A DNA stretch of 47,137 nucleotides, taken from Marinobacterium sp. Its GTDB lineage: Bacteria > Pseudomonadota > Gammaproteobacteria > Pseudomonadales > Balneatricaceae. The position numbers and the translations under genes are program-made. The DNA lies in NCBI GenBank assembly GCA_003250495.1, contig QKGH01000388.1:1-47137 (forward strand). The letters run 5' to 3'. Position 1 is the first letter of the stretch, and every line of letters begins with the position of its first letter. Positions 22,319-33,279 of this stretch are shown here, piece by piece. The notes below the pieces were generated by a model. The model was not told where the DNA came from. It searched no databases and worked only from the letters and a program-made list of their open reading frames with translations.

Positions 22319-23737
22319 TCAGCTCTCGACCTTCTGCGCTACCGCCTCCGGCTGCTTGCCCTCCTCCTGGTCGGCAAACACCAGCTCATCTTCCGGCGCA
22401 TGGCGGCCGAACAGTTTCGGCCGCTCGATCAGGAAGTACAGCACCAGGCCGATGACGACAGCATACACCGTGGATTTCGGATCCGGCATCGCCAGCGTTA
22501 CCGCGACGATCCCGGCCACGCCGCGCTCGGTCGGATTTTTCAGCTGTTCCATCCCCACCATGATGCAGATATAGGCGGTCAGGATCAGCGTCAGCGACAG
22601 TGCGATCGGCAGTACCGGCTTGAACAGCGTCACCAGCGGCAGGATGAACAGCGCGACCAGACCGGTGATCCAGAAGGTACCGCCGCCGCTGTAGATGGAG
22701 TCCATCGCCTTGCGCCCCATCGCGTAGCGCTCGGCCACCGTGGCGTGCGCGGCGGTCCACAGCGGACCGGCCAGACCCGGCCAGGGCGCCAGGAAGGCGT
22801 GCAGCAGGTTGCGCAGCGCCGTCACCAGGTGAACGCGGTCGACACTGGATTCGATCTTCTCATCCGCGCGCAGGTGATCCACCCGTTTGACCAGCGTAAA
22901 GCCGACGATGATGTCACCGAAGGCGATGACATAGGCGATGATCGCGGTCGGAATCGCCAGCAGGAACACATCCCAACCGGGGAAGCCGACGCTGAAGGTC
23001 AGGTACTGCCACATCAGGCCGAAGTCGGGTTGGGTGATCCCCCACTGGACATCCGGCAACGCATATTCGCCGCTGACCCAGCCGATCACCATCGCCAGGA
23101 TCATCCCCGGCACCATGCCGAAGTTGGCGATGCGCTTGGCCAGCGGGCTGGCATTGACCACGTTCTTGAACGACAGCGAGAACAGGATATAGGCGGAGAT
23201 GATCGCGCCCAGCAGCAGCGAGATCGGCGTCGCATCGACGCGGCCGCCGGTTTTCAGCTCGCCCATCAGCGCGGCGATACCGGCACCGATGATGATGCCG
23301 GACTTCAGCGAGTTGGGGATCACATCCACCAGCTTGGAACCGAGGCGGGTGATACCGAGGAACAGGAAGATCAGGGTGACTTCGACCTGCAGCGCGAACA
23401 TCGCCTTGATCGCCTCAGGGCCAGGCTCGAACCCTTTCAGGTAGAGCAGTACCACCGGGATAGCCGGGGTGATCCAGCCGGGAACCAGCGGCACCCCCAG
23501 CAGTGCTGGCAGGATATAGCCGAGACCGGCGACAAAGGTGAATGCCAGGGCCGCCTCGTAAGGCATGCCGAGGTAGGTTTCCAGTAGCGGTATCATCGCC
23601 AGACCGACCACGAACATGATCAGCCCCTGAATCATTTCAGGAAGCTCCCAGCGGTAGTGGATGAATGGCAGACGGATTCTGAACGGGCCGAGCGGCCAGC
23701 ACGGCTGCTCGTCGCCGTGACGACGGGTGATAGGCAT
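22319..23737 (-). CDS. SLC23/NCS2-like membrane permease
   Basis: This 472-residue integral membrane protein has about 12-14 hydrophobic segments (for example MIQGLIMFVVGLAMIPLL, AALAFTFVAGLGYILPALLG, IIIGAGIAALMG, DVFLLAIPTAIIAYVIAFGDIIVG). It resembles the xanthine/uracil permease (SLC23) superfamily, but the classic nucleobase signature is not obvious, so the substrate is open. FGDIIVG in the middle and the GGGTFWITGLVALFILP segment fit the carrier core. The C-terminus is polar and glutamate rich. The ATG has an AGGAAA ribosome-binding site. About 90 bases upstream lies the 19-bp sequence shared with the regulator/acyl-CoA operon region, which suggests co-regulation with them. Uptake of an organic acid used by that operon is my inference. 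Confidence 0.8.
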   Translation of the reverse strand: MPITRRHGDEQPCWPLGPFRIRLPFIHYRWELPEMIQGLIMFVVGLAMIPLLETYLGMPYEAALAFTFVAGLGYILPALLGVPLVPGWITPAIPVVLLYLKGFEPGPEAIKAMFALQVEVTLIFLFLGITRLGSKLVDVIPNSLKSGIIIGAGIAALMGELKTGGRVDATPISLLLGAIISAYILFSLSFKNVVNASPLAKRIANFGMVPGMILAMVIGWVSGEYALPDVQWGITQPDFGLMWQYLTFSVGFPGWDVFLLAIPTAIIAYVIAFGDIIVGFTLVKRVDHLRADEKIESSVDRVHLVTALRNLLHAFLAPWPGLAGPLWTAAHATVAERYAMGRKAMDSIYSGGGTFWITGLVALFILPLVTLFKPVLPIALSLTLILTAYICIMVGMEQLKNPTERGVAGIVAVTLAMPDPKSTVYAVVIGLVLYFLIERPKLFGRHAPEDELVFADQEEGKQPEAVAQKVES

Positions 23738-23826
23738 GGTCTAGTTTTCCTTATTGTTATGCTCTAAGCCGAATCCTGAGGATTCAGGGCCTAGTGAACC
23801 CGCTAAATGCGTCGGAATTTTTTCGC

Positions 23827-23845
23827 AAATCTAACGAAATGTAAC
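23827..23845 (+). promoter_or_regulatory. 19-bp repeat copy 1, predicted OmpR-family regulator site
   Basis: AAATCTAACGAAATGTAAC is identical to 29576-29594. Here the downstream base makes TAACG-AAATG-TAACG, a direct repeat with exact 10-bp period, as preferred by OmpR/PhoB-type regulators. It lies 90-108 bases upstream of the permease start. Confidence 0.65.
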
Positions 23846-24077: not shown

Positions 24078-25853
24078 TTAGAACTGATCGTCCGGGAAGC
24101 TGCTGATGCAGTCGTGGTCCTGCTGCAGGGAGCAGCAGTGGGAACCGACACGCGGCAACAGATGTGCAGCGTAGAAGCGTGCGCTGAGGATCTTGGCCTG
24201 CAGCCACTGCGCATCACCCTCGCCGGCATCCAGCATCCGCTGCGCTACCAGCGCGCTACGGGCCAGCATCCAGCCACCGGTCAGATAACCCATCGCCATC
24301 AGCATATCGACGCTGGCGGCCCCCATCACCTGCAGGTTGCCGGCCGCATGCTGCAGTATCCACTCCCGGGCCTGGGTCATGCTCTGCAGAGCATCATCCA
24401 GCGCGGCCGCGATCCCCTCCATGCCAGCGGTGCCGCGGACCTGGGTCAGGGTTTCGTCGATATCGGCCAGCAGTTCCGCCAGCAGTGCGCCGCCGTTCGA
24501 GCTGGTCTTACGGCCGATCAGGTCCAACGCCTGGATACCGGTGGTCCCTTCGTAGATCGGCAGGATGCGCGCATCGCGGAAGAATTGCGCCGCTCCGGTC
24601 TCCTCAACATAACCCATGCCGCCGTGCACCTGGACGCCAAGCGAGGTCAGCTCCTGGGCGAACTCGGTCATCCAGCCCTTGACGATCGGCGTGTAGAGAT
24701 CGACGCGCCCCTGGGCCTGGGCACGCACCGCGGCATCGCTGCTGAGATGAGCCAGATCGTTCTGCACCCCGGTCTCATAGGCCAGGCCGCGCATCGCCTC
24801 GACGCCGGAACGCATGGTCAGCAGCATGCGCCGCACATCCGGATGGCGGATGATCGCCGCCGGCGAACCGTCGGTGTCGCGGCCCTGAATACGCTCGCGG
24901 GAGTACTCCAGTGCCAGCTGGTAGGCGCGCTCGGAGATCGACAACCCCTGCAGCCCCACCGCCTGGCGCGCGTTGTTCATCATCGTGAACATGTAGGCCA
25001 GCCCCTTGTTGGCCTCGCCCACCAGGTAACCGATCGCACCACCGTTGTCGCCGAAGCTCATGACGCAGGTCGGACTGCCGTGGATACCCAGCTTGTGCTC
25101 CAGCGAGACGCAGGCGACATCGTTACGCTCGCCCGGCTCGCCGTTGCCATCGAGGATGAACTTCGGCACCACGAACAGGGAGATCCCCTTGACCCCGGCC
25201 GGCGCGTCCGGCAGACGGGCCAGTACCAGATGCACGATGTTCTCGGTCATCTGATGGTCGCCCCAGGTGATGAAGATCTTCTGCCCGGTGATCAGGTAAT
25301 GATCGCCCTGGGGTACCGCCTTGGCCGCCACGGCCGCCAGGTCGGAGCCCGCATTGGGCTCGGTCAGGTTCATGGTGCCGGTCCATTCACCGCTGATCAC
25401 CTTCGGCAGGTAGGCGGCTTTCAGCTCGTCGCTACCATGCTGGCTGATCGCCTCGACGGCGCCCTGGCTCAGCATCGGACACAGGGCGAACGCCATGTTG
25501 GCGCTGTGCCAGATCTCGTTGACCGCGGTCCCCAGCAGCACCGGCAGCCCCTGGCCGCCGAACTCCTCTTCGGCCACCAGCGAACCCCAGCCGTTTTCGA
25601 TAAAGGCGGCATAGGCATCGCCGAATCCCGGCGTTTCCTGCACACCGTTTTCACCCAGCACCGCCCCCCGATCATCGCCGGCCTTGTTGAGCGGCGACAG
25701 CACTTCATTGGCCAGACGCCCGGCTTCCGCCAGCACGGCGTTGCCCAGTTCGGCGTTGACATCGAGCCCCAGATCGGCGCAGTGGCGATCGAACTCGAGC
25801 ACCTGGTTCAGGACGAACTCCATGTCGCGGTAGGGGTAGCTGTAATCACTCAT
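24078..25853 (-). CDS. Acyl-CoA dehydrogenase, DmdC-like long form
   Basis: This flavoenzyme of about 591 residues oxidises an acyl-CoA to the 2-enoyl-CoA. The start MSDYSYPYRDMEFVLNQ is chosen over the track start 66 bases upstream because it matches the family N-terminus. The ACAD core shows MNLTEPNAGSDLAAV (about 160) and KIFITWGDHQMTENIVHLVLAR. QVHGGMGYVEETGAAQFFRDARILPIYEGTTGIQALDLIGRK (about 425-465) contains the catalytic glutamate in YEGTTG. A C-terminal extension of about 130 residues is typical of the DmdC/FadE-like long class that includes 3-methylmercaptopropionyl-CoA dehydrogenase. Homologues of this class also act on ordinary short and medium chains, so DMSP-derived substrate use is only a possibility. 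It is the last gene of the operon. Confidence 0.9.
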   Translation of the reverse strand: MSDYSYPYRDMEFVLNQVLEFDRHCADLGLDVNAELGNAVLAEAGRLANEVLSPLNKAGDDRGAVLGENGVQETPGFGDAYAAFIENGWGSLVAEEEFGGQGLPVLLGTAVNEIWHSANMAFALCPMLSQGAVEAISQHGSDELKAAYLPKVISGEWTGTMNLTEPNAGSDLAAVAAKAVPQGDHYLITGQKIFITWGDHQMTENIVHLVLARLPDAPAGVKGISLFVVPKFILDGNGEPGERNDVACVSLEHKLGIHGSPTCVMSFGDNGGAIGYLVGEANKGLAYMFTMMNNARQAVGLQGLSISERAYQLALEYSRERIQGRDTDGSPAAIIRHPDVRRMLLTMRSGVEAMRGLAYETGVQNDLAHLSSDAAVRAQAQGRVDLYTPIVKGWMTEFAQELTSLGVQVHGGMGYVEETGAAQFFRDARILPIYEGTTGIQALDLIGRKTSSNGGALLAELLADIDETLTQVRGTAGMEGIAAALDDALQSMTQAREWILQHAAGNLQVMGAASVDMLMAMGYLTGGWMLARSALVAQRMLDAGEGDAQWLQAKILSARFYAAHLLPRVGSHCCSLQQDHDCISSFPDDQF

Positions 25854-26049: not shown

Positions 26050-27678
26050 TTATAGCTCGCGCGTACGGTTACGCAGCAGGTATTTCTGGATCTTGCCGGT
26101 AGAGGTTTTCGGCAGATCACCAAACACGATCGTTTTCGGCACCTTGAAGTGCGCCATGTTGGCACGGCAGAACTCGATGATCTCCTCCGCGGTCACCTCG
26201 TCGGACGCGGTGATGAAGGCGCAGGGCGTCTCCCCCCACTTCTCGTCGGGCTTGGCCACCACGGCCGCTTCACGCACCTTCGGATGGCGGTACAGCACAT
26301 CCTCGACTTCGATACTGGAGATGTTCTCGCCGCCGGAGATGATCACATCCTTGGAGCGGTCTTTGATCTCGATGTAACCATCCGGATGCCACACCGCCAG
26401 GTCGCCGGAGTGGAACCAGCCGCCCTCGAACGCTTCGTCGGTGGTGCTCGGGTTCTTCAGGTAGCCGCGCATCACCAGGTTGCCACGCATGAAGATCTCG
26501 CCGATCGTCTCGCCGTCGGCCGGCACCGGCTCCCGGGTCTGCGGATCGGCGACCATCAGCCCCTCCATGACCGGGGCCTTGACCCCCTGGCGCGCCTTCA
26601 GCCGGGCGCGTTCGGTCGGATCGCACTCGTCCCACTCATCCTTCCAGGCGCAGACTACGCTGGGGCCGTAGGTTTCGGTCAGGCCGTAGACATGGGTCAC
26701 CTTGAAGCCCATGCGTTCGATCCCTTCGATCACCGCCGCCGGCGGTGCCGCACCGGCGGTCATCACCTTGACCTGGTGCTCGATCCCCTGCTTCATCTCG
26801 TCCGGTGCGCCATTGAGCATGTTCAGCACGATCGGCGCGCCGCAGAAGTGGTCGACCTTCTCCTCCTTCAACAGGCGGTAGATCTCGTCGACCCGGACAT
26901 GGCGCAGGCAGACGTTGACGCCGGCCACCGCCGCCAGTGCCCAGGGGAAGCACCAGCCGTTGCAGTGGAACATCGGCAGCGTCCACAGGTAGACCGGCTG
27001 TTCGGTCATCGACCAGGAGATGACGTTGCTCAGGGCGTTCAGGTAGGCGCCGCGGTGGTGGTACACCACGCCCTTCGGGTTACCGGTGGTACCGGAGGTG
27101 TAGTTCAGCGTGATCGCCTCCCATTCGTCCTCGACCGGCACCGGTACGAACGCGGGGTCGCCCTGCTCCAGCAGTGCCTCGTAGGTCAGCTCGCCGATCA
27201 GCTCGCCACCCTCGTACTGGAGATCGTCGATGTTGACCACCAGCGGCCGCCGCTGCACCAGTTTCAGCGCGCGGTTGATCACCGTGGAAAACTCGCGGTC
27301 GGTCAGCAGGACCTTGGTTTCCGCGTGCTCGAGGATAAACGCGATCGCTTCCGGATCGAGGCGGGTATTGATGCTGTTGAGTACCGCCCCACTCATCGGC
27401 ACACCGAAATGCGCCTCCATGTGTTCGGGAATATTGGGCGCGATGATCGACACCGTATCGCCCTTGCCGATACCGCGCTGGGCCAGTGCGCTGGCAAGGC
27501 GGCGGCAGCGGCTCCAGGTTTCACCCCAGTTGCGACGGACGCTGCCATGCACGACGGCGAGGCGCTCCGGGTAGACTTGGGCGGCACGTTCGAGAAAACT
27601 GACCGGTGTCAGCGGAACGTAGTTGGCTAGATTGCGATCCAGATGTTGTTCGTAGATTCCATTTGCACTTTGAGTCAT
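26050..27678 (-). CDS. Acyl-CoA ligase, DmdB/short-chain type
   Basis: This 542-residue ATP-dependent acid:CoA ligase of the ANL superfamily activates an acid through an acyl-adenylate. Motifs are in order. The P-loop YTSGTTGNPKG lies near residue 195, HVYGLTETYGP near 330, HSGDLAVWHPDGYIEIKDRSKDVIISGGENIS at about 420-450, and the catalytic lysine in KTSTGKIQKYLLR near 530. The length and the opening LANYVPLTPVSFLERAA match the group containing DmdB (methylmercaptopropionate-CoA ligase) and short/medium-chain acyl-CoA synthetases. The ATG has an AGAGGAT ribosome-binding site. It sits between the crotonase and the dehydrogenase. Natural substrates could be butyrate-like acids or 3-methylmercaptopropionate, and sequence alone cannot decide. 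Confidence 0.9.
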   Translation of the reverse strand: MTQSANGIYEQHLDRNLANYVPLTPVSFLERAAQVYPERLAVVHGSVRRNWGETWSRCRRLASALAQRGIGKGDTVSIIAPNIPEHMEAHFGVPMSGAVLNSINTRLDPEAIAFILEHAETKVLLTDREFSTVINRALKLVQRRPLVVNIDDLQYEGGELIGELTYEALLEQGDPAFVPVPVEDEWEAITLNYTSGTTGNPKGVVYHHRGAYLNALSNVISWSMTEQPVYLWTLPMFHCNGWCFPWALAAVAGVNVCLRHVRVDEIYRLLKEEKVDHFCGAPIVLNMLNGAPDEMKQGIEHQVKVMTAGAAPPAAVIEGIERMGFKVTHVYGLTETYGPSVVCAWKDEWDECDPTERARLKARQGVKAPVMEGLMVADPQTREPVPADGETIGEIFMRGNLVMRGYLKNPSTTDEAFEGGWFHSGDLAVWHPDGYIEIKDRSKDVIISGGENISSIEVEDVLYRHPKVREAAVVAKPDEKWGETPCAFITASDEVTAEEIIEFCRANMAHFKVPKTIVFGDLPKTSTGKIQKYLLRNRTREL

Positions 27679-27778: not shown

Positions 27779-28558
27779 TCAGTTACCGCTAAAACACGCT
27801 TTGCGGCGCTCGATGAACGCGCTCATCCCCTCCTTTCGATCATCGCTCGCAAAAGCCAGCCCAAACTGGGAACTCTCCAGTCGGCAGGCATCGGCAAGGC
27901 CCATGTTCTGTCCCTGCTGTACCAGCTGTTTCGCCATTCGCACGGCGACGCCGGCATTTGCCGCGATCAGCCGGGCCGTCTCCATTCCACTATCCTGCAA
28001 CTGCGCGGCCGGTACAACCCGGTTGACCAGCCCGATCCGCAGCGCCTCGTCGGCCTTCACCTGGCGCCCGGTGGTGATCATCTCCAGCGCCATCGCCTTG
28101 CCAACCAGCCGGGTCAGACGCTGGGTGCCGCCGAAACCGGGCGGAATGCCGAGGCTGACCTCGGGCTGACCGAAGCGTGCCTGCTCCGAAGCCAGGATGA
28201 AGTCGCAGGCCATCGCCAGCTCGCAGCCGCCACCCAGCGCATAGCCGTTGACCAGCGCGATGACCGGCATCGGCATCTGCTCCAGCTGCTGCATCAGCAG
28301 CGTCCCCCGCTGCGAGAACTGCTCGCCCTGCAGCGGTGTCAGCTCCCGCATCTCGGCGATATCGGCACCGGCGACAAACGCCTTCTCCCCGGCGCCGGTG
28401 ATCAGCAGCACGCGCAGTGAGGGGTCTGTCGCCAGCTCGGACAACAGGGTGGCGAGTTCGCCCAGCAGCACCGTATTCAAGGCATTGAGCGCTTGGGGGC
28501 GATTCAGTTCAATCAGGCCGATGCCGGGCTCCGGCTGACGGTAGTTCAACGTCTCCAT
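27779..28558 (-). CDS. Enoyl-CoA hydratase/isomerase (crotonase family)
   Basis: This 259-residue enzyme hydrates a 2-enoyl-CoA to the 3-hydroxyacyl-CoA. The oxyanion-hole segment AGADIAEM is near residue 62. Both catalytic glutamates of classical crotonase appear to be present, one in GGGCELAMACDF (about 109-120) and one in FGQPEVSLGIPPGFGGTQRL (about 132-151), which points to a true hydratase. The start has a GAGGGG ribosome-binding site, nine bases after the HBD stop, so the two are tightly coupled. In DMSP-demethylating bacteria a crotonase (DmdD or AcuH) performs the equivalent step on methylthioacryloyl-CoA, but the presence of HBD next door favours ordinary beta-oxidation. Confidence 0.92.
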   Translation of the reverse strand: METLNYRQPEPGIGLIELNRPQALNALNTVLLGELATLLSELATDPSLRVLLITGAGEKAFVAGADIAEMRELTPLQGEQFSQRGTLLMQQLEQMPMPVIALVNGYALGGGCELAMACDFILASEQARFGQPEVSLGIPPGFGGTQRLTRLVGKAMALEMITTGRQVKADEALRIGLVNRVVPAAQLQDSGMETARLIAANAGVAVRMAKQLVQQGQNMGLADACRLESSQFGLAFASDDRKEGMSAFIERRKACFSGN

Positions 28559-28567
28559 GGCGTCCCC

Positions 28568-29416
28568 TCAATACTGGTAGAAGCCGCGGCCGCTCTTGCG
28601 CCCCAGATAACCGGCGTCGACCATCTGGCGCAGCAACGGACAGGGACGGTACTTCTGATCGCCGAAGCCTTCGGCCAGCACCTCCATGATGCTCAGGCAG
28701 GTATCCAGGCCGATCAGGTCGGCCAGCGCCAGCGGTCCGATCGGCTGGTTGGTGCCGAGCAGCATCGCCTGGTCGATCGCTTCGGCCGTGGCGAGACCTT
28801 CAGCATAAACGAAGATCGCTTCGTTAATCATCGGCAGCAGGATCCGGTTGACGACGAAACCGGGCGCATCCTTGACGCTGACCTGGGTTTTACCGATCGC
28901 CTCGCTCAACTCGCAGACCGCCCGGTACACCGCGTCGCTGGTCTGCAGGCCGCGGATCACCTCGACCAACTGCATGACCGGCACCGGATTCATGAAGTGC
29001 ATGCCGATCACCTGCTCGGGGCGCTGGGTCTGGGCCGCCAGGCGGGTGATGGAGATAGAGGAGGTGTTGGTGGCGAAGATCGTGGAGGGTTTGCAGAGTT
29101 TGTCGAGCGTCTGCAGCAGCTGGGTTTTCAGCGTTTCGGACTCGCTGACCGCTTCGACGATCAGATCGCTGTCGGCCAGCGCGGCCATCTCGGTGGTGGT
29201 GGAGATCAACGCCAGCGCGGCATCCATCTGTTCCTGGGTCAGGCGCTCCTTCTCGACCAGGCGGCTCAGCGAGCCGGTGATCGCCTTGCGCGCAGCATCC
29301 AGGGCGTCGGTGCTGATATCGCAGATCTGCACCGGAATCCCGGCAACCGCCGTGACCTGGGCGATCCCTCGTCCCATCTGCCCAGCGCCGATCACTGCAA
29401 CAGCCTTGATAGTCAT
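28568..29416 (-). CDS. 3-hydroxybutyryl-CoA dehydrogenase type enzyme
   Basis: This 282-residue NAD(P)-dependent dehydrogenase of the HBD/PaaH family oxidises or reduces short 3-hydroxyacyl-CoAs. The Rossmann motif GAGQMGRGIAQ begins near residue 10, the catalytic histidine lies in IGMHFMNPVPVMQLVE (about 138), and PGFVVNRILLPMINEA marks the C-terminal domain. The length is typical of the stand-alone bacterial form. The ATG has a strong GGAGGT ribosome-binding site. It is the first gene of the four-gene acyl-CoA operon and is divergent from the histidine kinase gene, with about 240 bases between starts. No thiolase is present in the operon, so cleavage must be supplied from elsewhere. Confidence 0.93.
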   Translation of the reverse strand: MTIKAVAVIGAGQMGRGIAQVTAVAGIPVQICDISTDALDAARKAITGSLSRLVEKERLTQEQMDAALALISTTTEMAALADSDLIVEAVSESETLKTQLLQTLDKLCKPSTIFATNTSSISITRLAAQTQRPEQVIGMHFMNPVPVMQLVEVIRGLQTSDAVYRAVCELSEAIGKTQVSVKDAPGFVVNRILLPMINEAIFVYAEGLATAEAIDQAMLLGTNQPIGPLALADLIGLDTCLSIMEVLAEGFGDQKYRPCPLLRQMVDAGYLGRKSGRGFYQY

Positions 29417-29575
29417 TGTTCACCTCCGAAACCGAACAATGCCGGTCGCGCAGCTGCGATACGGTAAAGACCGTAGTGCGGACTCGGACAGCATTGTTAT
29501 TATTGTCTAGCCCCGCCTGCGGCCGGGCACCGATTCAAACGACGGTAGCCAACGAAGGTTGCGATACTTTTGCGA

Positions 29576-29594
29576 AAATCTAACGAAATGTAAC
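29576..29594 (+). promoter_or_regulatory. 19-bp repeat copy 2, predicted OmpR-family regulator site
   Basis: AAATCTAACGAAATGTAAC is identical to the copy upstream of the permease. It lies 66-84 bases before the kinase start and about 160 bases before the HBD start. TAAC recurs with 10-bp period. The adjacent OmpR-family regulator is the obvious candidate to bind it. Confidence 0.65.
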
Positions 29595-29659
29595 AACCGC
29601 AAACCTTCTGCACTCAATTGATTTAAGATGCTGACAATACAATAACAACCCCTCCCGCC

Positions 29660-32560
29660 ATGTTGCCCGGTTCCCGATTGACCAAGCGTTTCACCCTGGT
29701 AATCCTCGCCATCATCGTGGCGATCATCGCCGCCTTCTATTTCTATTCGGTGCCGCTGATCAAGAGCAAGGTGTTCGAGATCGAGCGCAACGCCAGCCGC
29801 ATCGCCCTCAACAACGTGTTCGCCCTGGCCGAGAAGATGCAGACCGGTACCCTGGAGTATCGCGAGCAGGTCCTGGAATCGCAGCGCCAGCGCCTGCGTA
29901 CCGTGGTCAACACCACCGCCTTCTTCTACCAGCAGCAGCTGACACTGGCCGCCAGTGCCGGCATGGAGAGCCAGGCCGCGCAGCACCAGGTGCTGGAGCA
30001 GATCCGCCGCTTCAGCTACGGCGATGGCGATTACGTCTGGATCGCCGACGAGCAGGCGCAGTTGATCTCCCACCCCGACAGCGACTACTTCGGACGCTCG
30101 ACCGAGCGCTTCACCGACGAACAGGGCAACCCGATCATTCCGCCGGTGGTGGAGATGGCGATGCGCGACGGCGAGGGGTTCTACCGCTACCGCTGGCACC
30201 GGCTGAACGAAACCCAGCGCATCGAGAAGTTCTCCTACGTCAAATATTTTCCGCAGTGGCATTTCGTCATCGGCTCCGGCGTCTATATCGACGATATCGA
30301 CGCCGAGGTGGAGGCGCGGCGCAAACAGGCGCTGGCCGAGCTGCGCCAGGCGTTTTCCGAGATCAAGGTCGCCGAAACCGGCTACCTGTTCATCTTCGAC
30401 GAGAATGGCCGCATGCTGGTGCACCCGAACCAGAACATCGACGGCTTCGATTTCCGCACCCTGGAGAACCCGGTCACCGGCAACAAGATCAAGGACGACC
30501 TGATCAGCGTCGCCGATACCGGCCAGGAGCTCTACTACAAGTGGGACCGGCCGGACGACCCGGGCGACTATCGCTACGAAAAGGTCTCGCTGGTGCGCTT
30601 CCTGCCCGGCTTCAACTGGTATATCTGCTCGTCGGTCTACCTCGACGAGCTGCAGGCCAGCTCCGGAGTGCTGGTCGATCGCATTCTGGTGATCGCAACC
30701 ATCGCCCTGCTCTGCGCCTCGCTGCTGGCACTGCTGTTCGCCCATCTGGTGACGCGCCCGATCCGCCAGCTGTCGGAGACGGCACAGCGCATCAGCAACG
30801 GCGATTTCAACGCCACCACCGGCATTCGCCGCAACGACGAGATCGGCCTGTTGGCCGGCGCCTTCGACCGCATGGTCGACAACCTGAAGCAGAACATCGT
30901 GCAACTCGACGACAAGGTCAGCCAGCGCACCTCGCAACTGCACGAGCGCAACCTGCAGCTGCAGCAGGTGATGCAGGAGGTGCGCAGCGCGCACCACAGC
31001 CTGGAACTGGCCGAGGAGCTGCAGCGCCTGATCCTCGATACGCTGCCGGCGCAGATCGCCTATATCGACGACCGGCAGCGCTACGTGTTCGTCAACGAGG
31101 GCTACGCCCACGCCTTCAACCGCAGCAAAGCCGAGGTGATCGGACTGACGCTGGAGCAGGTGGTCGGTAGCAAGATGTACGGCGATATCCGCTCCCAGGT
31201 CGAGGGGGCGCTGGAGGGGGTCGCCAGCAGCTTCATCTACACCCTGAACCAGGACGGCGAGGAACATATCACCAAGCGCACGCTGATCCCGTTCAGCCCC
31301 AGCGGCGGCGGCGTGCACGGGTTGATCAACCTGTCCCTGGACGTGACCGCGGAGAAAGAGGCCGAGCAGCGTCTGCGCGATGCCCAGCGCATGCACACGG
31401 TGGGACAACTGGCCGGCGGCCTGGCCCACGACTTCAACAACCTGCTGTCGATCCTGCAGGGCAACCTGATCGCGATGAAAGAAAATCCGGCCACGCCGGC
31501 CGCGCTGATGGTGCATATCGAGCCGGCGATCCGGGCGACCCGGCGCGGCTCCGACATCACCCGCCGTCTGCTCGCCTTCGCCGGACGCCAGCCGCTGTCG
31601 CCATCGCATATCGACCTGCCGGCCCTGATGCACGACTGCATGACCCTGATCGAGGGTTCGCTGCCGAGCAACATCCGCCTCGAAGCGGAGCTGCCGCCCG
31701 ACCTGTGGAGCCCGCTGGCCGACCCGGGGCAGCTCGAGGACGTGCTGGTCAACCTGGCGCTGAACGCCCGCGATGCGATGCCCAGCGGTGGCGAGCTGCG
31801 CTTCTGCGTGCGCAACTGCGAGGTCGATAACCGTCGCGTCATGGATACGCAGGTTGCGCCGGGGCGTTACATCGAGCTGCGGATCGCCGATACTGGTCGC
31901 GGCTTCTCCGCCGAAGCGATGGAGAAGGCGTTCGAACCCTTTTTCACCACCCGCCAGGGCGCCAACTCCTCGGGCCTGGGCTTGAGCATGGTCTACGGTT
32001 TCGTCAAACAGTCGCGGGGCTATATCGCGCTGGCCAACCGTCCCGCCGGGGGCGCGTTGATCACGCTGCTGCTGCCGGCGGGCCCGGTGGCGGTCGCGGC
32101 CGGGGCGGACGCGCCGATGGTCGCGCCGGCGCAACCGGCAGCGGGCGGCCTGGTGCTGTTGGTCGATGACGAGGACGATGTGCGTGCCGTGATCCGCGAC
32201 CAGTTGGTCAAGCTCGGCTATGCGGTGATCGACTGCGCCAGCGCCCAGGAGGCCCTGGCACTGATCGGCACCCTGCCGCCCCTGGCCGCGCTGGTCAGCG
32301 ATATCGTGATGCCCGGCGAGGTCAGCGGCTTCGTGCTGGCGCGCCACCTGCGCCAGGTGCAGCCCGACGCGGCGGTGGTGTTGATCAGCGGGTACGCCCA
32401 GCGGCGCAGCGAGCACCCGTCGGACTGTGCCTCCCTGCCGCTGCTGCCGAAACCCTTCAACCGCGAGGAGCTAGCCGCGGCACTGCACAGCCCGGCGGCC
32501 AAGGCGGCCCTGGTGGCGAGCGAACAATGTGAGAGGAGTGACAGGGAGTTGGAGCCTTGA
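29660..32560 (+). CDS. Hybrid sensor histidine kinase: double Cache, HAMP, PAS, kinase, receiver
   Basis: This 966-residue membrane sensor starts with a transmembrane helix (about 10-32). A large periplasmic ligand-binding region follows (about 33-335) with two similar Cache-type halves, GDGDYVWIADEQAQLISHPDSDYFG and ETGYLFIFDENGRMLVHPNQNIDG. A second helix (about 335-358), a HAMP domain (TRPIRQLSETAQRISNGDF) and a PAS domain (about 455-570) come next. The phosphoacceptor box GGLAHDFNNLL (His about 590) precedes an ATPase domain (GFSAEAMEKAFEPFFTTRQG; SSGLGLSMVYGF). The C-terminal receiver has LLVDDEDDVRAV and Asp in VSDIVMP (about 881). Cache pairs commonly sense organic acids or amino acids. 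The stop overlaps the regulator's TTG start, so they are translationally coupled. The signal is unknown; acids handled by the divergent operon are a sensible guess. Confidence 0.93.
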   Translation: MLPGSRLTKRFTLVILAIIVAIIAAFYFYSVPLIKSKVFEIERNASRIALNNVFALAEKMQTGTLEYREQVLESQRQRLRTVVNTTAFFYQQQLTLAASAGMESQAAQHQVLEQIRRFSYGDGDYVWIADEQAQLISHPDSDYFGRSTERFTDEQGNPIIPPVVEMAMRDGEGFYRYRWHRLNETQRIEKFSYVKYFPQWHFVIGSGVYIDDIDAEVEARRKQALAELRQAFSEIKVAETGYLFIFDENGRMLVHPNQNIDGFDFRTLENPVTGNKIKDDLISVADTGQELYYKWDRPDDPGDYRYEKVSLVRFLPGFNWYICSSVYLDELQASSGVLVDRILVIATIALLCASLLALLFAHLVTRPIRQLSETAQRISNGDFNATTGIRRNDEIGLLAGAFDRMVDNLKQNIVQLDDKVSQRTSQLHERNLQLQQVMQEVRSAHHSLELAEELQRLILDTLPAQIAYIDDRQRYVFVNEGYAHAFNRSKAEVIGLTLEQVVGSKMYGDIRSQVEGALEGVASSFIYTLNQDGEEHITKRTLIPFSPSGGGVHGLINLSLDVTAEKEAEQRLRDAQRMHTVGQLAGGLAHDFNNLLSILQGNLIAMKENPATPAALMVHIEPAIRATRRGSDITRRLLAFAGRQPLSPSHIDLPALMHDCMTLIEGSLPSNIRLEAELPPDLWSPLADPGQLEDVLVNLALNARDAMPSGGELRFCVRNCEVDNRRVMDTQVAPGRYIELRIADTGRGFSAEAMEKAFEPFFTTRQGANSSGLGLSMVYGFVKQSRGYIALANRPAGGALITLLLPAGPVAVAAGADAPMVAPAQPAAGGLVLLVDDEDDVRAVIRDQLVKLGYAVIDCASAQEALALIGTLPPLAALVSDIVMPGEVSGFVLARHLRQVQPDAAVVLISGYAQRRSEHPSDCASLPLLPKPFNREELAAALHSPAAKAALVASEQCERSDRELEP

Positions 32561-33279
32561 GCAAAAAGCTTATCTATATCATCGACGACGAAGCGGATAT
32601 CTGCGACCTGATCGCGCTGGAGCTAAACCGCCACGGCTACGAGACCCGCAGCTTCCAGACCGGCGCCCAGGCGATCTACGCATTGAACCGGCGTAAACCG
32701 GACCTCTGCGTCATCGACCTGGGCTTGCCGGATATGGACGGTATCGGCCTGGTCCGCCAGCTGTGCGATACCCAGGGGCTCGGCGTCATCATCATCTCCG
32801 GCCGCAGCAGCACCAGCGATCGCGTACTGGGCCTCGAGTTCGGTGCCGACGATTATCTGAGCAAGCCGTTCGAACCGCGCGAACTGGTGGCCCGGGTCAA
32901 CAGCCTGCTGCGCCGCCTGGACCAGATCGACAGCGCCTCCCGCACCGCCGGCGCTCTGCGTTGCGCCCGCTTCGCCGGCTGGGAGTTCAACCAGAGCACG
33001 CTGACCCTGACCCGCCAGGAGAGCGGCGACGAGCAGGTGCTGTCGGCTTCGGAGGCGGCACTGCTGACCCTGCTGCTAAAGGCGCCACGGCAGATACTGT
33101 CGCGGGATCAACTGCTGCAGGGGCATGCCGACCCGTTCGACCGCAGTATCGATGTCAGGATGTCGCGGATCCGCAAAAAGATCGAACAGGACCCGCGCAA
33201 CCCCACCATCATCAAGACCGTATATGGCGCCGGTTATGTCCTGACCGCCGCAGTGGAGTGGCTGGCCGGCGGCCAGTGA
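32557..33279 (+). CDS. OmpR-family response regulator
   Basis: This 240-residue protein has a receiver domain (IIDDEADICDL, phosphorylatable Asp54 in CVIDLGLPDMDG, Lys in DDYLSKPFEPREL). It also has a C-terminal winged-helix DNA-binding domain ending DVRMSRIRKKIEQDPRNPTIIKTVYGAGYVL. Translation begins at TTG within a TTGA overlap with the kinase stop; GGAG lies upstream at a fitting distance. It is the cognate partner of the hybrid kinase, although that kinase has its own receiver and no Hpt domain is seen, so the phosphoryl route is uncertain. OmpR-type proteins bind tandem half-sites of about 10-11 bp period, which matches the 19-bp repeats found upstream of the permease and in the divergent promoter region. 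Confidence 0.94.
   Translation: MSKKLIYIIDDEADICDLIALELNRHGYETRSFQTGAQAIYALNRRKPDLCVIDLGLPDMDGIGLVRQLCDTQGLGVIIISGRSSTSDRVLGLEFGADDYLSKPFEPRELVARVNSLLRRLDQIDSASRTAGALRCARFAGWEFNQSTLTLTRQESGDEQVLSASEAALLTLLLKAPRQILSRDQLLQGHADPFDRSIDVRMSRIRKKIEQDPRNPTIIKTVYGAGYVLTAAVEWLAGGQ

Follow-up and report, generated by a model that had tools for sequence, protein, structure and literature searches.

The boxes bound by Escherichia coli OmpR consist of tandem 10-bp GTTACA half-sites (GTTACAnnnnGTTACA, PMC7315122), and a related box is known for RstA (TACATNTNGTTACA), in the structure of which Val203 contacts T and Arg207 contacts G (PMC4117788). The same two contacts are cited for OmpR. Two-component control of an uptake system is known from the carboxylate-uptake systems RpuS/R and MctS/R of rhizobia, in a study of SLC5/STAC kinases (PMC9100948). 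A comparison of the present locus with these systems reveals a 19-bp sequence, AAATCTAACGAAATGTAAC, which reads GTTACA-N4-GTTAGA towards the metabolic genes and the permease and thus forms a tandem 10-bp box of the OmpR type. It agrees with the OmpR consensus GTTACAnnnnGTTACA at 11 of the 12 defined bases and, as TACATTTCGTTAGA, with the RstA box with one mismatch, whereas it differs from the OmpR boxes in that the second half-site is mostly GTTAGA. The recognition helix RSIDVxxSRxR, with the equivalents of V203 and R207, is shared with OmpR; however, the targets are acyl-CoA and transport genes and the partner is a Cache-PAS hybrid kinase rather than EnvZ, and the RstA system likewise has other genes and another sensor. 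The likeness to MctS is partial (126 bits for the kinase with model NF052443, against a cut-off of 700), and in contrast to the rhizobial systems a Cache-type kinase fused to a receiver is combined with an OmpR-type regulator and with PurT-like or ABC transporters. The putative operator and its regulon are new and belong to the known OmpR/PhoB-type kind. The 19-bp sequence is most likely the operator of the regulator encoded beside it, and the whole reading, in which this regulator would act as an activator of the acyl-CoA operon and of the permease and would also autoregulate the kinase and regulator genes, is given a probability of about 0.87 on the strength of the sequence comparisons described below.

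The locus lies in the window, which is the whole 47,137-nt stretch of DNA that was analysed, and its features are listed in Table 1. The metabolic genes run on the minus strand in the order HBD, enoyl-CoA hydratase, acyl-CoA synthetase, acyl-CoA dehydrogenase and permease, the last with an intergenic region of its own, and the kinase and regulator genes diverge from HBD on the plus strand. The permease has no match in Pfam or NCBIfam, despite its similarity to PDB 7TAK, the title of which is “putative membrane protein PurT”. The regulator contains a receiver (PF00072) and a Trans_reg_C winged helix (PF00486), both above cut-off, in line with the original remark that an OmpR-family regulator is encoded nearby, and OmpR and its relatives provide the closest structures to its DNA-binding domain, the recognition helix RSIDV..SR being aligned.

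Table 1. Genes, putative operator copies and -10-like hexamers of the locus (positions in the window).
Feature	Position	Strand	Remarks
PurT-like permease	22319..23737	-	close to PDB 7TAK, E 2e-261, nearly full length
-10-like hexamer TTCACT, permease promoter	23793..23798	-	28 nt from operator
Operator copy 2 (putative)	23827..23845	-	before permease; orientation relative to target as in copy 1
Acyl-CoA dehydrogenase	24078..25850	-	domain search
Acyl-CoA synthetase (AMP-binding)	26050..27678	-	NF006020, 929.7 bits vs cut-off 677
Enoyl-CoA hydratase	27779..28558	-	PF00378
HBD, 3-hydroxybutyryl-CoA dehydrogenase	28568..29416	-	opens divergent operon; NF004474, 446.7 bits vs cut-off 408
-10-like hexamer TACCGT, acyl-CoA operon promoter	29542..29547	-	28 nt from operator
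Operator copy 1 (putative)	29576..29594	-	acyl-CoA-ward GTTACATTTC GTTAGATTT, two head-to-tail 10-bp half-sites; common to divergent HBD/kinase promoters
-10-like hexamer TAAGAT, kinase promoter	29624..29629	+	29 nt from operator (family peak 28); weaker than other two
Hybrid sensor kinase	29660..32560	+	Cache, HAMP, PAS, HisKA (weak), HATPase, receiver
OmpR/PhoB-family response regulator	32557..33279	+	immediately 3' of kinase; recognition helix DRSIDVRMSRIRKK

The 19-mer had been noticed as two exact copies in intergenic DNA upstream of genes with TAAC repeated at a 10-bp period, and each of these points holds. In a scan of the whole window, AAATCTAACGAAATGTAAC occurs on the plus strand at the two operator positions of Table 1, with no third match at up to three mismatches; copy 1 is flanked by the HBD and kinase genes, and copy 2 by the acyl-CoA dehydrogenase gene and the start of the permease gene. 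The TAAC spacing is exactly 10 bp, and the half-sites GTTACATTTC and GTTAGATTT form a head-to-tail pair of the 10-11-bp period typical of OmpR/PhoB operators. The sequence does not occur in 100 dinucleotide shuffles, which indicates that it is not a product of chance. The 14-bp core TAACGAAATGTAAC, allowing one mismatch, is found nowhere beyond these two places in the 3.5-Mb, 490-contig assembly, which is 87.5% complete, so that a further copy may lie in the missing DNA; in the assembled genome, the site has thus not spread into unrelated coding regions, a pattern that would have counted against the original prediction.

Orthologues of the kinase are present in 56 of the 117 genomes of the same family, Amphritea among them (Amphritea pacifica and family genome G063 encode identical regulators). 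In a class-wide sample of 369 genomes, only the genome of the window itself gives a match at E <= 1e-180, which indicates that the close form of the system is largely confined to the family. Conservation beside orthologous regulators, the absence of which would likewise have counted against the original prediction, is observed: among 61 relatives with a hybrid kinase and an OmpR-type regulator (the window counted in and the serine-type paralogues described below set aside), 59 carry the site upstream of the kinase with 0-5 mismatches, compared with a background of about 0.8% of shuffled 300-bp regions at five mismatches or fewer and none at three or fewer. The two exceptions are a Phaeospirillum relative from outside the family with a weaker site (6 mismatches) and locus L204, which lies on a short contig. 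The orientation is constant, with GTTACATTTCGTTAGATTT facing the metabolic genes and the permease, and the site is conserved at a fixed promoter distance in eight genera belonging to the family. Conserved positions are restricted to the site, the columns of which are nearly invariant, and to the promoter on the metabolic side; in the flank towards the kinase, most columns are close to random, at about 0.1-0.3 bits. A wider scan of contigs mostly returned distant kinases matching in the kinase half alone, the informative cases being Amphritea, Thiolinea and Phaeospirillum, and no recognisable site is found in an Azospirillum relative with 40.8% kinase identity. In relatives at the level of the order, one-mismatch matches to the core are about as frequent as those to the reversed control and are hence treated as background.

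Scanning of a -10 matrix over the operator flanks, with significance obtained from circular shifts, gives a best offset of 28 nt on the metabolic side (39 non-redundant sequences, z 4.2, 0 of 5000 shifts as good), on the kinase side (44 sequences, z 3.5, 0 of 5000) and on the permease side (9 sequences, 0 of 3000). At the permease, T[TC][TC]A[CG]T occupies the -10 position in 11 of 12 cases and TTAAAT in the twelfth, and the set includes a promoter with a weak operator. These promoters have a conserved -10 but lack a consensus -35, and the 28-nt spacing to the -10-like hexamer corresponds to the fixed position next to -35 that is typical of OmpR/PhoB operators. With this hexamer taken as the -10 element, the operator would span about -59 to -41 and occupy the place of an OmpR/PhoB-type activator. 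Between the operator and the -10 on the metabolic side (29548-29575 in the window, for example), the relatives share a further conserved stretch, GACAAA.T...GCAA...TT, which is possibly a second, weaker dimer site.

This geometry suggests activation rather than repression. Repression is also possible for OmpR-family proteins, and the geometry taken alone is compatible with the same regulator blocking the divergent promoters until its dephosphorylation frees the site. However, the box just upstream of the would-be -35, together with the conserved -10 and the missing -35 consensus, resembles activator-dependent OmpR/PhoB promoters, and a repressor is therefore considered unlikely, although it is the alternative that fares best.

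The strongest evidence that the 19-mer is the operator of this regulator, and not only of some member of the family, comes from covariation between the recognition helix and the site. Every retrieved regulator but five has a valine at the position that we take to be V203 of OmpR from its distance to the C-terminus of the E. coli protein, and the five exceptions, all paralogous regulators (L063, L066, L196, L197 and L202), have a serine. Exactly these five are accompanied by a changed operator, CGCACATTTCGGTG[CG][AG] (CGCACA-N4-GGTG..), in which T is replaced by G at position 2 of both half-sites. This position adjoins the contacted guanine, and its thymine is the base that residue 203 contacts in RstA and OmpR. 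The tally is 56 regulators with valine and the canonical site, five with serine and the changed site, and one with valine that is unclassified. The sister regulator L070 has valine and the canonical site, and the serine-type helices differ little from it otherwise, except for a change of L to P in L066. The serine clade has a single origin in the tree (support 100/99), which indicates that the switch of residue and site is one event, kept across two genera, and that the covariation is without independent replication; additionally, the changes in the serine-type operator extend beyond the position that residue 203 contacts. In each of the six genomes in which the changed operator occurs (G013, G027, G130, G059, G066 and G131), a canonical paralogue is present as well, and in two of them (G013 and G027) the permease retains the canonical site. 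After duplication, a V203S-type change in the helix together with T to G in both half-sites probably insulated the two paralogous systems within one genome, a natural and nearly single-residue rewiring. The co-switch is a compact natural case in which a response regulator has changed together with its DNA site after duplication. Covariation, the fixed -10 spacing and the similarity to the OmpR and RstA boxes together implicate this regulator in particular, and they support the proposal of a putative OmpR-family operator serving both divergent units and the permease.

The agreement with the OmpR consensus and the many OmpR-family regulators encoded in the genome could also be explained if a different OmpR-like protein, such as a global one of the EnvZ/OmpR type with a preference for GTTACA, binds the site while the adjacent regulator acts elsewhere. 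The adjacent regulator itself remains below the cut-offs of the EnvZ/OmpR equivalog NF007005 (170.5 bits vs 331) and the RstA equivalog NF007977 (114.9 bits vs 330). No regulator in six genomes, that of the window included, reaches the OmpR cut-off. Moreover, the site is confined to this cluster in the genome, tracks the kinase/regulator pair and changes together with the helix of the adjacent regulator, and a global OmpR is thus improbable. A local duplication could place two exact copies less than 6 kb apart, but a non-regulatory repeat, whether it arose by chance or by duplication, is hardly credible, since the shuffles exclude chance and the conservation across eight genera at a fixed promoter distance excludes neutral duplication.

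With the site read as the operator of the adjacent regulator, the Cache-domain kinase would respond to a ligand outside the cell, which may be a short-chain carboxylate, by phosphorylating the regulator. A dimer of the latter may bind head-to-tail, its R207 and V203 equivalents reading the guanine and the thymine, respectively, of each GTTA half-site. Bound just upstream of the -35 position of promoters without a good -35 element, the regulator would recruit RNA polymerase both to the acyl-CoA operon and to the permease, and in the opposite direction it may autoregulate the kinase and regulator genes.

The regulon appears to be tiny, since a search with a degenerate version of the site yields 0-3 matches in each of 20 family genomes, compared with one match in total for the reversed control. 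The most constant metabolic partner is a PRK08162-type acyl-CoA synthetase. The transporter is variable, and in several relatives the divergent operon begins with a branched-chain-type ABC transporter. Of the 57 genomes that were searched first, 12 encode a close permease (at least 83-84% identical), and each of these contains the kinase; the site precedes the permease in nine (0-4 mismatches) and, in a weak form (5-6 mismatches), in two more, and the remaining permease gene directly follows the ligase gene. The site is absent in front of distant permease paralogues (61-64% identity). The system likely serves to take up a carboxylic acid and to activate it with CoA. A literature search returned no published description of this two-component system, which is apparently undescribed as well as family-wide. 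A putative operator, its predicted target genes and the promoter geometry are now defined for a system in which an acyl-CoA ligase is coupled to an exchangeable transporter, either a PurT-like permease or a branched-chain-type ABC system, and in uncultured relatives the site may help to predict both additional targets and the signal.

In four genomes of the genus Amphritea (L234, L250, L251 and L237; site at 1501), an extra copy of the operator is located before a branched-chain/urea-type ABC ATPase. This copy adjoins a MerR-type regulator gene and a TTTACGTAAACGTAAA-like palindrome, which resembles a LiuR box. In Azospirillum thermophilum, a relative of the kinase (L262 3454-9396), split into two genes in the annotation, is flanked by an ActP/DUF485 acetate symporter pair on one side and by an acyl-CoA synthetase on the other.
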